From NCBI GenBank assembly GCA_018222345.1, contig JAAFAL010000011.1, positions 2,558 to 40,968 on the forward strand: a stretch of DNA of 38,411 nucleotides, given 5' to 3'. The stretch comes from a bacterium (GTDB lineage Bacteria; Pseudomonadota; Gammaproteobacteria; Nevskiales; OUC007). This document shows positions 1-34,003 of the stretch, piece by piece; the first letter of the stretch is position 1, and each line of letters begins with the position of its first letter. A program made the translations under genes and the position numbers. The notes under the pieces are model-generated. The model was not told the DNA's origin. It worked only from the letters and a program-made list of their open reading frames with translations, and searched no databases.

Positions 1-77
1 TTGGGGGTGCCGATTGCTGCCGGCCCAGGGAGTGATGGCCGGCTTGCAACGCGCCGGGAAGCGCGTGCAAGGAATCA
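1..77. repeat. Structured direct repeat, copy 1 (cut by window edge)
   Basis: This segment matches 1537-1614 along its whole length except for one missing G in a G run. It holds two clear inverted repeats: GCCGGCC...GGCCGGC, then CTTGCA-CGCGC pairing with GCGCG-TGCAAG. The match starts at base 1, so the element probably continues outside the window, where a terminator hairpin like that at 1493-1523 may lie. Similarity stops abruptly after GGAATCA. No family is recognised. Confidence 0.85.
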
Positions 78-211
78 AAAACATTAAACATTGCGGTGAC
101 AGCTTGCCAATTACACTATTTATTTCACTCCGCCGTCACCCGTAAAAGCGCGCCTGCAACCGGCCTTTTTGGCCCGTAGCGCGGAGCAAAATCAGGCTGC
201 GCTGCCGCCAA

Positions 212-274
212 GTTGTTCGAATCATCTCTGCCCGAAAAGCCGAGCGCAAACTCTACGACGGGGCGTTGCCATGA
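212..274 (+). pseudogene. Remnant of a BrnT-like toxin gene (C-terminal end only)
   Basis: Read from 212, this frame encodes about 20 residues containing RIISARKAERKLY, which resembles the C-terminal end of BrnT-family toxins. It stops with TGA at 272-274, overlapping the antitoxin ATG at 271 as ATGA, the usual arrangement of toxin-antitoxin pairs of this type. Upstream the frame stays open only to a TAA at 143-145, and nothing there resembles the BrnT body. Seen: the motif and the overlap. Inferred: the toxin gene was truncated from its 5' side, perhaps when the neighbouring repeat was placed. Confidence 0.6.
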
Positions 275-483
275 AATCGCATAAGAACCCGTATGCCTCG
301 CGTATGAAGCGACAAGTGACCATTCGCATGCGGGATGATGTGATTGGCTGCTTCAAGGAGATGTTCGAAGAAACCGGAATTCCGTACCGGAGCCTGATCA
401 ATCTCTACTTGCGAGGCTGTATGGCAGATGAGCGTCGGCCAGACCTGACGTGGCGATCAAACATGTTAGAAAAAATAGTGTAA
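271..483 (+). CDS. BrnA/CopG-like ribbon-helix-helix antitoxin
   Basis: A 70-residue protein with the sequence pattern of BrnA-type antitoxins: NPYASRMKRQVTIRM is the likely beta strand, followed by DDVIGCFKEMFEETGIPYRSLINLYL as helix-turn-helix (shown here only as a pattern; key residues are V15, I17, R18 and the GIPYRSLIN stretch). Such proteins bind their own promoter as dimers and neutralise the partner RNase toxin. ATG 271 is chosen because the family similarity begins there and because it overlaps the stop of the toxin remnant. The frame is open upstream to 169, but that extension resembles nothing. With the toxin reduced to its tail, this looks like an orphan antitoxin; it may still act as a DNA-binding protein. 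Confidence 0.7.
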   Translation: MKSHKNPYASRMKRQVTIRMRDDVIGCFKEMFEETGIPYRSLINLYLRGCMADERRPDLTWRSNMLEKIV

Positions 484-593
484 ATCGTAGGGTGCCACAG
501 TAATTCGCTACCAACGCACAATTCAGGCATCCTAGGCTGCTGCAGTTGGCCGTCGCCGACCTTCGTTCGTGAACCACACATAAGAGAATAAGC

Positions 594-1301
594 ATGTTTC
601 GTGACGATCCAGAGGTGCAGGTGGCGTTCGACACAGTGGTGCAACGTGACCGCGAATTGAAAATGCTCGAGATTGGATGTGGGTCAGCTTCGCACCTGGA
701 TTTTCCTCGAAAACCGTACATCGTTGGGCTTGATGTCTCTGAAGAGCAGCTCAAACGAAATGATGTCATCGACGAAAAAATCCATGCTGACATTGAAACT
801 TATGAGTTGTTAGCGTCCGAATATGACGTTGTGGTTTGTTGGTGGCTGTTGGAGCACCTGTCGGATCCGATAAGTGTTCTGGAAAAGTGTGAGAAGTCAC
901 TGAAGCCCGGTGGTGTCCTGGTCGTTGCTGCACCGAATGTTAGATCTGTGAAGGGGCTCATCACTAAATTTACTCCTCACTGGTTCCACGTCTGGGTTTA
1001 CAGATATGTGTTTGGCGTTAAAGACGCTGGCAAAAACGAGACCGTTCCATTCAAAACCTATCTGAGATGGAATTTGTCGGGCTCCGGCCTGAAGCATTTC
1101 GCCCACAATGCTGGTTTAGACGTGGTGCGGCTAGGTTTTCACGAGAATTACTGGCAAGCCAAGCTACGCCGTGAAAATGTAGTTCTGGATGTCGGGTGGA
1201 AAATTGCAGGCTTCTTTGTTCGTGTTGTCAGTTTGGGGTTCGTTGAGCCCGATAAGACTGACCTTACGCTCGTGCTTAAAAAGCAAGCAGCGCCTCTTTA
1301 G
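594..1301 (+). CDS. Class I SAM-dependent methyltransferase
   Basis: A 235-residue protein with a Rossmann methyltransferase core. Motif I is LEIGCGSASH (residues 25-34), the acidic residue after strand 2 is in GLDVS (about 45-49), motif II lies in VVCWWLLEHLSDP (about 84-96), and a KPGGVLVVAAPN stretch follows. This matches the Methyltransf_11/23 type that transfers a methyl group from S-adenosylmethionine to small molecules or glycans. The substrate cannot be told from sequence. No membrane segment or signal peptide is evident. The gene is visibly AT-richer than the genes from 1796 on, which suggests recent acquisition. It lies between the two structured repeats and downstream of the orphan antitoxin. 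Confidence 0.85.
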   Translation: MFRDDPEVQVAFDTVVQRDRELKMLEIGCGSASHLDFPRKPYIVGLDVSEEQLKRNDVIDEKIHADIETYELLASEYDVVVCWWLLEHLSDPISVLEKCEKSLKPGGVLVVAAPNVRSVKGLITKFTPHWFHVWVYRYVFGVKDAGKNETVPFKTYLRWNLSGSGLKHFAHNAGLDVVRLGFHENYWQAKLRRENVVLDVGWKIAGFFVRVVSLGFVEPDKTDLTLVLKKQAAPL

Positions 1302-1343
1302 CGGTACTAATTTCGGTCCCCAGTAATCGCTGAGGGAGCCAGT

Positions 1344-1445
1344 ATGTCCGTCAATTTCTCCGAAAACGTCGTGCCACCAGGCGACCTCAAGATCAACCCA
1401 GGAAAGATCGGCAGAATTACGGTGACACTGTACTCATTGCATTAA
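1344..1445 (+). CDS. Possible micro-protein, 33 residues
   Basis: A short frame starts at ATG 1344 after a near-ideal Shine-Dalgarno sequence (GAGGGAG, about 6 bases upstream) and ends at TAA 1443-1445. The product would contain VVPPGDLKINPGKIGRITVTL and has no signal peptide. It lies 42 bases after the methyltransferase stop and could be co-transcribed with it. No family is recognised. It could also be the start of a longer gene cut short by whatever placed the terminator and repeat downstream. Existence as a real gene rests on the ribosome binding site alone. Confidence 0.35.
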   Translation: MSVNFSENVVPPGDLKINPGKIGRITVTLYSLH

Positions 1446-1483
1446 TTTTGCTTGAGCCTTCATCTGGCAGCATCTTTCACCGC

Positions 1484-1523
1484 CAAAAAAATCCCCCGCA
1501 GACCCGGGGACGGCCTGCGGGGG
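1484..1523 (-). terminator. Rho-independent terminator, minus strand
   Basis: CCCCCGCAG (1493-1501) pairs perfectly with CTGCGGGGG (1515-1523), a 9-bp GC stem with a 13-base loop. Read on the minus strand the stem is followed directly by A and seven T residues (1485-1491). It could end transcripts of the LysE-type gene (stop at 1796) or of a separate RNA made from 1524-1614. Confidence 0.8.
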
Positions 1524-1536
1524 AACTGTCATCGGC

Positions 1537-1614
1537 TTGGGGGTGCCGATTGCTGCCGGCCCAGGGAGTGATGGCCGGCTTGCAACGCGCCGGGGAAGCG
1601 CGTGCAAGGAATCA
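1537..1614. repeat. Structured direct repeat, copy 2
   Basis: Second copy of the element at 1-77, with one extra G. It contains GCCGGCC/GGCCGGC and CTTGCA-CGCGC/GCGCG-TGCAAG inverted repeats. Just before it TCGGC (1532-1536) pairs with GCCGA (1545-1549). With the terminator stem at 1493-1523 this makes four consecutive hairpins ending in a U tract on the minus strand, the architecture of a small RNA or a structured 3' UTR. No known RNA family is recognised. Confidence 0.8.
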
Positions 1615-1795
1615 GACAGCGTGTTTGCGGGCGAAGTTCCGACAGTTCTCGCGAGGCAGAGCTCGACACAACCTGTTGAATTTGCTTGAAATAACAAAGA
1701 ATTAACGCGGCATTTCATCGCCGGGAAATGACCGTTCATCGGCCAGCGCCTGATTAATCAGTCAGTCGGCACCGAGTCAACATGCGGTGCAGCCC
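1615..1795. other. Intergenic stretch without recognised feature
   Basis: Together with the repeat and terminator this completes a gene-free interval from 1446 to 1795. It holds short open frames without ribosome binding sites or family resemblance. If the structured element is transcribed as an RNA on the minus strand, its promoter would have to lie here, but no convincing -35/-10 pair was found. Confidence 0.5.
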
Positions 1796-2413
1796 TCAGA
1801 CGACCACCAGCCAAACTGCGATTGCCGCCATCAAACACGCTGACAGGCGATTCAGCCAGCGGCCCAAGCCGCGCTGCACAAGCGCCACCTTTAGCATGCG
1901 GCCGCCCTGCGCGTAGAGCAGCATGCAGGCAAACTCGATGATCACCATGATGCTGACGAGCGTGACGCCTTGCGGAAGTAGCGGGCGGTCGCCGTTCACA
2001 AACGGGGGCAGCAACGCGGCGAAGAATATCCACGCCTTGGGGTTGGACGTGGCGGTGATAAAGCCTTGCGCGGCCAAGGCCACAACGGTGTGCTGCTTTG
2101 TGGTCGCCACATTGCCCACGAAGCTGTCGGAGCGCCAAGCGCTCACCGCGGCGTAGAGCAGATATGCCGCACCGGCCAGTTTGGCTAGGGCAAACAGTTG
2201 GGGTTGCGCGACCAATAGCGCTGCCACGCCCACCAAGGCGGCGGTTGCGACGACGACAATGCCCGCCAACTCGCCGGCCATCATCCACAGCGTGCGGCGC
2301 ACGCCAATTTGTATGCCCAGCGTCATGGCCAGGCTCATGCACAGGCCGGGGCTGACGGCGATCAGGAAGAAGCTCGCTGCAAACGCAAGCAGCGTGGCGG
2401 GTTCAACTGGCAC
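1796..2413 (-). CDS. LysE/RhtB-family amino acid exporter
   Basis: A 205-residue, very hydrophobic inner-membrane protein with about six membrane segments. It fits the LysE/RhtB exporters: the N-terminal SPGLCMSLAMTLG stretch after the first helix, then a long helix pair, the central SNPKAWIFFAALLPPF signature (about residues 123-138), and a C-terminal helix ending WLVVV. Members export amino acids or related metabolites using the proton gradient; the substrate is not predictable. The start is GTG at 2413; no ATG gives a complete first helix, and no clear Shine-Dalgarno sequence is present. A palindromic repeat separates it from polA. Proximity to lysA is probably coincidental. Confidence 0.85.
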   Translation of the reverse strand: MPVEPATLLAFAASFFLIAVSPGLCMSLAMTLGIQIGVRRTLWMMAGELAGIVVVATAALVGVAALLVAQPQLFALAKLAGAAYLLYAAVSAWRSDSFVGNVATTKQHTVVALAAQGFITATSNPKAWIFFAALLPPFVNGDRPLLPQGVTLVSIMVIIEFACMLLYAQGGRMLKVALVQRGLGRWLNRLSACLMAAIAVWLVVV

Positions 2414-2435
2414 GGGACGGGATCATACGCTCGGC

Positions 2436-2521
2436 TGTCATTGCGAGCGAAGCGCGGCAATCTCGTTACGTGGGCGGACCGTCCAGCAGATTGCCGCGGC
2501 GCTTTGCGCCTCGCAATGACA
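2436..2521. repeat. Palindromic TGTCATTGCGAG repeat, copy A
   Basis: Begins TGTCATTGCGAGCGAAGCG and ends in the inverted counterpart CGCCTCGCAATGACA, with GCGGCAATCTCGT near the left arm and AGATTGCCGCGGC near the right arm. The 86-bp element lies between the 3' end of polA and the 5' end of the LysE-type gene on the same strand. It contains no protein gene and could fold into a long hairpin when transcribed. Confidence 0.85.
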
Positions 2522-2540
2522 GATTTGGTTGCGCTATTAC

Positions 2541-5255
2541 TTAGTGTGCAGCGTCCCAGTTGTCGCCAATGCCGGCTTCGGCCAGCAGTGGCACGGCGAG
2601 GTCGGCGGCGGCCTCCATGCGGTCGCTGATGCGCTTGGCCATGTCTTCGGCGGCGTCTTCGGCTACTTCGAACACCAACTCGTCGTGCACTTGCATGATC
2701 ATCTTCGCTGGCAGCTTTTCGGCTGCGAGCCAGGCGTGGATGTCGATCATGGCGCGTTTGATGATGTCGGCTGCGGTGCCTTGCAACGGGGCGTTGATGG
2801 CCACGCGCTCGGCGCCGCTGCGGGCGGCTTGGTTGCGGGCTTTGATGTCGGGCAAATACAGGCGACGGCCGTACAGGGTTTCGACAAAGCCGTCGTCCTT
2901 GGCCTTGGCCTTGCAGCCGTCCATGTAGGCCTTCACGCCGGGGTAGCGGGCAAAAAACGTGTCGATGTGCTCGGCGGCTTCGGCGCGGCCGATGTTCAGG
3001 TTGCGCGCCAGGCCAAACGCCGAGATGCCGTAGATCAGGCCAAAGTTGATGGCTTTGGCGGCTCGGCGCTGGTCGCCGCTCACATCATCCAGCGGTACGC
3101 CCCAGACTTCGGCGGCAGTGGTGCTGTGAATGTCCTGCCCGTTTCTGAATGCTTCGATTAGCGACTTATCTTCCGAAAAATGCGCCATTAGCCGCAGCTC
3201 AACCTGCGAATAATCGATGGCCAGCAGCTTGTGGCCGTCCGGCGGGATAAAGGCTTCGCGGATGCGCCGGCCCTCGCTGGTACGAATCGGAATGTTCTGC
3301 AGGTTGGGGTCGGACGACGACAAGCGCCCAGTGGCCGCGCCAGCCTGGTGGTAGCTGGTATGCACGCGGCCGGTGTGGGCGTTGATGCGTTCGGGCAGCG
3401 TCAGGGTGTAGGTGCTGCGTAGTTTGCTCAGGCTGCGCCAGTCGAGGATCAGCTTGGGCAGCTCGTATTCTTCGGCCAACTCGCTGAGCACCGCCTCGTT
3501 GGTGCTGGGCGCGCCCTTGGGGGTTTTGCGCAGCACCGGCAACTCCATCTTGTCGAACAGGATTTCGCCAATCTGGCTGGGCGAGCCCAGGTTGAACGGC
3601 TGGCCGGCGATATCGTGCGCCTGCTGCGCCAGTTCGTCGATGCGCTCGCCGAACTCATGGGTGAGGTCGGCCAGGGTTTGTTTGTCGATCCGCACGCCGG
3701 TGCGCTCGATGTCGGCCAGCACGGGCACCAGCGGCATTTCGATGGCCTCGAAAATGTGGCGCTGGCCCTCGGTTTTCTCCAGTTGGCCCCAGATCTGCTG
3801 GTGCAGCCGCAGCGTGATGTCGGCGTCTTCAGAGGCGTAGGGCGCGGCCTGCTCCAGATCGATCTGATTGAAACTCAGCTGCTTTTTGCCCTTGCCGGCA
3901 ATGTCCTCGAACTTGACCGTGTCGAGGTTGAGGTGGAGCTTGGCAAGCGTGTCCATGTCGTGCCGGCTGCCGCCAGCGTTGAGCGTAAAGCTCTCAAGCA
4001 TGGTGTCGTAGGCCACGCCGCGCACGGCCACGCCGTGGTGGGCCAGCACGTTGAGGTCGTACTTGATGTGCTGGCCAAGCTTGGGGATATCCGCATTTTC
4101 CAGCACCGGCTTGAGCGCCTCCAGGCAAGCGTCGCGGTCTAGCTGATCCGGCGCGCCCATGTAGTCGTGGGTGAACGGCAGGTACCAGGCTTCGCCCGGC
4201 TCAACGGCAAAACTCAGGCCCACCAGGCCGCCGGTGATGGCATCCAGCGCGTCGGTTTCACAGTCCAGGCAGATGAGCTCGGCTGACTGCAGCGCCTTGA
4301 GCATGGCGTCGAAGGCGTCTTGATCGAGCACCGTGTGGTACGTCGTGTCGTTGGGCACGGACGGCGCGGCAACGGCGTCCTCTACTTGCTCTTCACTGAC
4401 CACTACCGGGTCGTCCAACCAGCGGTTGAAGCCCAGGCGCTTGTACATCCCAAGCAGCGCCTCGCTATCAGCTTCACCCCGGCACAGGTCGTTGATGCCG
4501 ATGTCCAATTCGACATCGGTCTTGATCGTGGCCAGTTCGCGCGACTTCGGCAACTGCTCAAGCCCAGCCCGCAGGTTTTCGCCGATCTTGCCGCCAATTT
4601 CTCCATTTTTAGCGATGATGGCGTCAAGATCGCCGAAATTATTGATCCACTTGGCGGCCGTCTTGACCCCGCATTTTTCGATGCCGGGAATGTTGTCGCT
4701 GCTATCGCCCATCAGTGCCAGCAGGTCGATGATGCGCTCGGGCGGCACACCGAATTTTTCGACCACGCCTTCGACATCCATGGTTTTACCCTTCATGGTG
4801 TCGATCATCACCACGCGCTCATTGATGAGCTGGGCCAAGTCCTTGTCGCCGCTGACGATGCGCAGGTCCATGCCGTCCGGCAGTTGATGCGCCAGCGTGC
4901 CGATCACGTCGTCGGCCTCCACGCCGCTGATTTGCAGCATGGGGATGCCCAGCGCCTCGACCAGGTCAACAATCGGCTGGAACTGGTCCGACAAGTCCGG
5001 CGGCACCGGCGGGCGATTGGCCTTGTAGTTGGGGTCGAGTTCGTGGCGGAAGTTCTTGCCGCGGGCATCGAAAATAACCGCAATGCGCTGCGGATTCTGC
5101 TCGCGCAGCAGGCCACGCAACATGTTGCCAAAGCCATAAACGGCGCCGGTTGGGCTGCCGTCCGGTGCAGTCAGCGGTGGCAGGGCGTGAAAGGCGCGGT
5201 ACAGCCAGCCGCTGCCGTCGATGAGCCAGAGGGTATTGTCGCTGGGGTTGTTCAT
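2541..5255 (-). CDS. polA: DNA polymerase I
   Basis: A 904-residue protein, close to the usual 900-930, that fills gaps and removes RNA primers during replication and repair. Three domains are visible: an N-terminal 5'-3' exonuclease/FEN domain (about 1-290, with LLALMGDSSDNIPGI), a 3'-5' exonuclease domain (about 320-500) whose ExoI motif LDCETD keeps the D-x-E pair, and the polymerase domain. Motif A is DYSQVELRLMAHFSED, motif B is AKAINFGLIYG, and motif C is VHDE (856-859). ATG 5255 begins MNNPSDNTLWLIDGSGWLYR, as expected for the family; the frame stays open upstream, but there it covers the neighbouring gene. It lies 23 bases after the membrane-protein gene, likely in one transcript with lysA. 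Confidence 0.97.
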   Translation of the reverse strand: MNNPSDNTLWLIDGSGWLYRAFHALPPLTAPDGSPTGAVYGFGNMLRGLLREQNPQRIAVIFDARGKNFRHELDPNYKANRPPVPPDLSDQFQPIVDLVEALGIPMLQISGVEADDVIGTLAHQLPDGMDLRIVSGDKDLAQLINERVVMIDTMKGKTMDVEGVVEKFGVPPERIIDLLALMGDSSDNIPGIEKCGVKTAAKWINNFGDLDAIIAKNGEIGGKIGENLRAGLEQLPKSRELATIKTDVELDIGINDLCRGEADSEALLGMYKRLGFNRWLDDPVVVSEEQVEDAVAAPSVPNDTTYHTVLDQDAFDAMLKALQSAELICLDCETDALDAITGGLVGLSFAVEPGEAWYLPFTHDYMGAPDQLDRDACLEALKPVLENADIPKLGQHIKYDLNVLAHHGVAVRGVAYDTMLESFTLNAGGSRHDMDTLAKLHLNLDTVKFEDIAGKGKKQLSFNQIDLEQAAPYASEDADITLRLHQQIWGQLEKTEGQRHIFEAIEMPLVPVLADIERTGVRIDKQTLADLTHEFGERIDELAQQAHDIAGQPFNLGSPSQIGEILFDKMELPVLRKTPKGAPSTNEAVLSELAEEYELPKLILDWRSLSKLRSTYTLTLPERINAHTGRVHTSYHQAGAATGRLSSSDPNLQNIPIRTSEGRRIREAFIPPDGHKLLAIDYSQVELRLMAHFSEDKSLIEAFRNGQDIHSTTAAEVWGVPLDDVSGDQRRAAKAINFGLIYGISAFGLARNLNIGRAEAAEHIDTFFARYPGVKAYMDGCKAKAKDDGFVETLYGRRLYLPDIKARNQAARSGAERVAINAPLQGTAADIIKRAMIDIHAWLAAEKLPAKMIMQVHDELVFEVAEDAAEDMAKRISDRMEAAADLAVPLLAEAGIGDNWDAAH

Positions 5256-33406: not shown

Positions 33407-34003
33407 ATGGCATCAAGCAACTCGTCGCCGAAGGCAGCAGGCAATAGTGCGCCCGAGCAAACCTTGCTTGAGCGCATTGCCAGTGGCGACGATTTGGCGC
33501 TAGCCGCCTGCATCAAGCAATACGGTGGCCTGGTTTGGTCGATTGCGCGGCGTTATTTCCGCGACAGCGCCGAGGCCGAAGATGCCGTCCAAGAGGTATT
33601 TACAGATTTGTGGCGTTCGGCTGCACGCTTCGACCGCAACATCCGGTCAGAGCAGTTTTTTGTCGCCATGATCGCGCGGCGGCGGGTTATCGACCGGCTG
33701 CGGCAGGTGACGCGCCATCCCACCGAGCAATTGCCCGACGGGCCGCTGGAGGCGACGCGCGCCGACGGCGACCCCGAAGTCAGCGCCGAAGTGGCGGTGA
33801 TTCAGGAAAAGATGAATGAATTGCGTGAGGACGAGCGTTCGGTGCTCGACCTTGGCGTGGTGCAAGGCTATTCGCACAGCCAAATTGCCGAGTTGCTGAA
33901 AATGCCGCTGGGCACAGTCAAAAGCCACACTAGGCGCGGTTTGCTGCGCCTGCAGGAGTGGTTGGGTGAAGGGCCGGGCAGTGACAAAGGTAATCAGGCA
34001 TGA
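33407..34003 (+). CDS. ECF-type RNA polymerase sigma factor
   Basis: A protein of about 198 residues with sigma region 2 (YGGLVWSIARRYFRDSAEAEDAVQEVF; key: DAVQEVF) and region 4 (YSHSQIAELLKMPLGTVKSHTRRGLLRLQ; key: SQIAELL, GTVKSHTRR), and no region 3, which defines the ECF/group 4 type. The start is uncertain: ATG 33407, ATG 33380 and earlier ones are in frame, and none has a clear ribosome site. Its stop overlaps the anti-sigma start as ATGA. Region 4 resembles the SigK/RskA-paired group. Confidence 0.92.
   Translation: MASSNSSPKAAGNSAPEQTLLERIASGDDLALAACIKQYGGLVWSIARRYFRDSAEAEDAVQEVFTDLWRSAARFDRNIRSEQFFVAMIARRRVIDRLRQVTRHPTEQLPDGPLEATRADGDPEVSAEVAVIQEKMNELREDERSVLDLGVVQGYSHSQIAELLKMPLGTVKSHTRRGLLRLQEWLGEGPGSDKGNQA

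Follow-up and report, generated by a model that had tools for sequence, protein, structure and literature searches.

A 77/78-bp sequence occurs twice near the left end of the window, by which we mean the whole stretch of 38,411 nucleotides that was analysed (G000:C108:2558–40968). The two occurrences, at positions 1–77 and 1537–1614, raise the question of whether this sequence is a gene for a small RNA (sRNA), a repeat of another kind or the end of a neighbouring transcription unit. We consider it highly probable that the element is a trans-acting sRNA gene of the sX13 kind, located downstream of polA and present in two copies, for which sigma-E control, pairing through the loops and a promoter change at copy 1 are proposed. 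The two copies are as follows.

1–77, minus strand: sRNA copy 1, of which the window contains the 5′ part; the remainder, terminator included, is to the left of the window (G000:C108:2351–2457)
1485–1611, minus strand: sRNA copy 2, polA-proximal, assigned from its fold, its terminator and its matches to sX13 and to the model R1 described below

The repeat noted in the original prediction proved to be real, and the two sequences within the window match save for one 1-nt indel. The window starts inside copy 1 because this copy is cut by a 100-N scaffold gap (G000:C108:2458–2557), directly after which the first base of the window lies; with the part to the left of the gap, copy 1 is full-length and includes a terminator. 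The two pieces of copy 1 overlap by exactly 55 nt, with a difference between the copies at either end of the overlap; an assembler that collapses a real repeat is expected to leave this signature. When merged, copy 1 differed from copy 2 at 3 sites in ~130 positions (a deletion in a loop, a G-C/G-U change in the terminator stem and the loss of a closing pair in stem 3) and had the same fold (−67.8 versus −69.8 kcal/mol). A gap inside copy 1 and halves that overlap by 55 nt might also be expected if copy 1 were a scaffolding artefact and only one true copy existed. However, both halves of copy 1 have substitutions or an indel absent from copy 2, their outer flanks are unique, and the overlap spans exactly the sequence that separates two differences, as a real repeat would show after its collapse in the assembly graph; we therefore regard an artefact as extremely improbable.

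The flanks of copy 1 and copy 2 are unrelated, and the identity between the copies ends sharply at the ends of the RNA gene. The initial proposal of a recent duplication or selection holds in outline, as an identity that stops at these points fits a recent duplicate under selection or gene conversion. Many degenerate genome-wide copies, which had been named as the mark of a plain dispersed repeat, did not appear in a search of the own genome; it revealed only these two, and a dispersed repeat was rejected on this ground. We infer that copy 2 is the ancestral copy.

Folding of positions 1485–1614 bore out the four consecutive stems and the T7 tract that had been predicted on the minus strand. 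This strand folds at −70 kcal/mol, with z = −5.4 relative to shuffles, into the following structure, in which the 5′ end of the copy 2 RNA is placed according to the promoter position.

1607–1580, minus strand: hairpin HP1, loop UUCCCCGG
1579–1555, minus strand: hairpin HP2, loop with ACUCCCU
1550–1531, minus strand: hairpin HP3, loop ACCCCCAA
1524–1492, minus strand: terminator hairpin HP4, loop with GUCCCCG
1491–1485, minus strand: T7 tract, 3′ of HP4

The last hairpin is an intrinsic terminator with a 13-bp stem followed by T7. The stem-loops are stable, as are those of sX13, and their apical loops are C-rich (UUCCCC, CUCCCU, CCCCC and UCCCC); the loops are conserved across homologues as CUCCCUGG/A, CCCCCAA and the CCCC of the terminator loop. 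An RNA from the plus strand was rejected, its fold having a z of −2.2 (versus −5.4 for the minus strand) and lacking a T-tract. The stems were also evaluated in an alignment of 40 sequences of the window's order, aligned by sequence alone. Fifteen of the 23 predicted pairs had changed on both sides, and standard pairs occupied 92.8% of the pair cells, as compared with 83.5% in shuffles and 23–50% with slid partners. The observed value of covariation was reached by 0 of 500 shuffles, and so was that of pairing.

The sequences upstream of the two copies contain the following promoter-like elements.

1612–1640, minus strand: sigma-E (RpoE/AlgU)-type promoter of copy 2, with −35 GGAACTT at 1640–1634, a 16-nt spacer and −10 GTCTGA at 1617–1612
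83–110, minus strand: candidate sigma-70-like promoter of copy 1, with TTGGCA at 110–105, 16 nt and TTTAAT at 88–83

A promoter of the GGAACTT-N16–17-TCTGA type is present at copy 2 and absent at copy 1, which has lost the motif, as it ceases to match copy 2 within the −10 element. The strict sigma-E-type motif was found directly upstream of 81 of 95 homologues, the control rate at random positions of these loci being 2.6%, and most of the homologues without it had near matches by eye. A search of the plus strand across the 38-kb window gave a single AAGTTCC and no GGAACTT. The sigma-70-like site, which is suitably spaced from copy 1, agrees with the consensus at 10 of 12 positions (p ~0.004 against shuffles; none among 5000 random positions of the window); because a stricter promoter scan does not list the site, we regard this single weak consensus match as suggestive only. 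RpoE and Hfq are both encoded in this genome, above curated cut-offs. A further match to an ECF-type sigma factor lies in the window at ~33455–33937 (G000:C108:36012–36494) and scores 45 bits against the RpoE model, under its cut-off.

No Rfam family matched in the window at curated cut-offs, which are 50 bits for sX13 (RF02232) and 49.5 bits for anti-hemB (RF02837). With a relaxed threshold, the minus strand matched both sX13 (33.1 bits, E 8.7e-5) and anti-hemB (32.9 bits, E 3.7e-6). None of the genomes of the order passed the sX13 cut-off. We then used R1, a covariance model built solely from sequences of the window's order, and obtained homologues in 83 of the 85 genomes of the order (72/72 of the good-quality ones) and in 164 of the 369 genomes of the class. 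Three class genomes have a cut-off-passing sX13, and there the R1 matches lie at identical coordinates, so that homology to bona fide sX13 is given by an independent model. Another class member (L146) passes the anti-hemB cut-off, with 51.7 bits, at its R1 match, which adjoins engB. The initial statement that no known RNA was recognised is thus superseded by the sub-threshold matches to Rfam sX13 and anti-hemB, together with the reciprocal model search, which confirms the link to sX13.

The genomic position of the element is anchored by polA, from which copy 2 is separated by one gene; both genes were assigned from open reading frames and domain matches.

1796–2413, minus strand: LysE-type translocator gene, between polA and copy 2
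2541–5213, minus strand: polA, DNA polymerase I, the locus anchor

Thus, the window sRNA lies downstream of polA on the same strand, as sX13 does, with a lysE gene between; in three loci of the same family, the homologue directly follows polA. All 81 R1 matches in polA-containing loci are downstream of polA on its strand, at distances of 42–1240 bp. A set of 80 named polA loci gave 17 R1 matches, and all of these (17/17) likewise follow polA on the same strand; the distance is at most ~0.4 kb for 16 and 2 kb for the remaining one. The specificity of R1 is supported by this consistent location of its matches. Eight of the 14 matches without polA in the locus adjoin engB; the engB of this genome is on another contig than the window. 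The R1 matches of two loci (L154 and L157) adjoin neither polA nor, apparently, engB, that of L154 lying near hslVU-like genes, and are possible relocated paralogues. Between lysE and polA of the window (2433–2522), there is a REP/MITE-like palindromic repeat, TGTCATTGCGAGCGAAGCGCGGCAATCTC...GATTGCCGC...CTCGCAATGACA. It has 68 own-genome matches, many of which are one place matched on both strands, corresponding to dozens of copies.

The canonical intrinsic terminator at the end of the element is on the strand of polA and lysE, and the element might accordingly be only a strong terminator or hairpin array that ends the polA-lysE transcription unit, with no independent regulatory RNA. A terminator, however, has no need of another three hairpins whose loops are C-rich and conserved and whose stems covary. 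Moreover, nearly every copy is preceded by its own conserved promoter, genomes contain two to six full copies, and sX13, its homologue, has been verified as an independent sRNA (PMC3771888). A mere terminator is thus very unlikely, and the original idea of a small RNA is strongly supported by the covariation, the polA/engB position, the conserved sigma-E-type promoter and the homology to sX13 and anti-hemB.

We compared the window RNA with known sRNAs. sX13 of Xanthomonas, a verified sRNA encoded downstream of polA and said to be confined to Xanthomonadaceae, uses its C-rich loops to repress G-rich mRNAs, which have the G-rich motifs near the start codon, and does not need Hfq for this repression (PMC3771888). 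The window RNA resembles it in its location downstream of polA, its length of ~115 nt, the order of its stem-loops with C-rich apical loops and the intrinsic terminator. It differs in scoring 33 bits against a cut-off of 50 that is the mark of Xanthomonadaceae, in its longer 5′ hairpin, in being duplicated and in its sigma-E-type promoter; the strict form of this motif is absent from Rfam-grade sX13 genes, and promoter control thus differs. Anti-hemB (Burkholderia RNA 7, RF02837; ncS04 of B. cenocepacia), the function of which is unknown (PMC5688073), shares with the window RNA a CUCCCUGAGCGG-type hairpin and a C-rich terminator, whereas the score of the window (32.9 bits) is below the cut-off of 49.5 and the anti-hemB model is shorter (81 positions). 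The alpha-r7 sRNAs of alphaproteobacteria are polA-linked and have three hairpins with C-rich loops, with no sequence similarity to sX13 reported (PMC3771888); they resemble the window RNA, by description, in the polA link and the C-rich loops. Spot 42 (spf) of Enterobacterales and Vibrionales, an Hfq-dependent regulator of carbon metabolism, occupies the same chromosomal slot at polA (PMC3771888). Identity with Spot 42 was rejected, as the window has no RF00021 match and R1 had no match with E ≤ 0.1 in any of the enterobacterial polA loci that were searched. ErsA of Pseudomonas aeruginosa is transcribed by the sigma-E homologue AlgU and has been called a functional orthologue of Spot 42 (PMC8395346). 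It provides a parallel to the window RNA in the way it works, the likeness being one of regulation. We take ersA to sit at polA-engB.

Multiple copies of the RNA are common in the order: 42 of the 85 genomes have two to six R1 matches, partly non-tandem. In one genus, three to six copies stand in tandem, most of them behind a sigma-E-type promoter of their own, and in a tree of the array copies some group by array position across species and others by species. Four to six tandem sRNA copies with very divergent spacers lie downstream of polA in L098, L104, L119 and L125. A transposase-remnant-like stretch, recognised by eye, separates groups of sRNA copies at ~1000–1400 of L103 (G027), which suggests that the sRNA array tolerates insertions. 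The pair in the window is unusual in that its copies are near-identical, one of them is without a sigma-E promoter, and protein genes are enclosed.

Judging from its sequence, the element is probably switched on by envelope stress, under which RpoE would transcribe the sRNA. By analogy to sX13 and ErsA, its C-rich loops probably block ribosome-binding sites; being anti-Shine–Dalgarno-like, they would pair with G-rich ribosome-binding sites, and translation would be repressed. Copy 1 would be the product of a duplication, after which it lost its sigma-E promoter and gained one of sigma-70-like type; because of this promoter change, copy 1 may also yield the same RNA in the absence of stress. 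Today a brnA remnant and a methyltransferase gene lie between the two copies.

sX13 has been described as exclusive to Xanthomonadaceae, and Rfam treats sX13 and anti-hemB as separate small families; here, the same kind of RNA was found in nearly half of the sampled class, linked to polA or engB and to a promoter of the sigma-E type. It would thereby be a core envelope-stress regulator outside the enterobacteria, in which Spot 42 holds the slot. A wider reading, to which we give as much belief as doubt, is that a single ancient family, spread throughout the gammaproteobacteria, has sX13, anti-hemB and the window RNA as its branches, that its members are C-rich-loop sRNAs at polA-engB, mostly under sigma-E control and repeatedly amplifying in tandem, and that here the duplicate moved from a stress to a housekeeping promoter with its RNA almost unchanged. 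The species with one to six copies and the promoter-changed pair described here constitute natural experiments on sRNA dosage and rewiring.

The interval between the copies contains the following genes.

218–483, plus strand: brnT remnant and brnA-like antitoxin gene, the brnA being 86% identical over 188 bp to the paralogue in an intact pair
594–1301, plus strand: class I SAM-dependent methyltransferase gene (PF13489, PF08241)

These genes look foreign and are flanked by copies whose identity ends sharply at the ends of the RNA gene, and an imperfect 35-nt inverted repeat surrounds the brnA remnant. Such features would suit a mobile or attachment-site repeat, in which the copies are direct repeats from a small genomic island (the brnA remnant and the methyltransferase gene) inserted at the sRNA gene. 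However, neither the open reading frames nor the domain matches between the copies include an integrase or transposase, the genome has two copies only, and plasmid or phage collections gave no match at blastn sensitivity. In addition, related species have full tandem copies with short spacers and their own promoters, and a single insertion between the copies leaves unexplained the brnTA pair that also lies to the left of copy 1. Insertion of an island is thus unlikely. An integron attC or island attachment repeat was rejected, as there is no recombinase; the reading frames are brnA-like and methyltransferase between the copies and lysE between copy 2 and polA. A plasmid or phage origin was rejected from the same blastn searches.

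The intact brnT-brnA toxin-antitoxin pair is at G000:C108:1427–1926, beside copy 1. The brnT inside the inter-copy interval is truncated, and the remnant is a decayed paralogue of the intact brnTA. The inverted repeat (74%; window 90–124 and 470–504) brackets the brnA remnant and could represent the ends of a degenerate small element; an own-genome search with the bracketed segment gave no second copy beyond the brnA match. The sRNA pair and the brnA pair may both go back to a single tandem duplication, with replacement or gene conversion afterwards.
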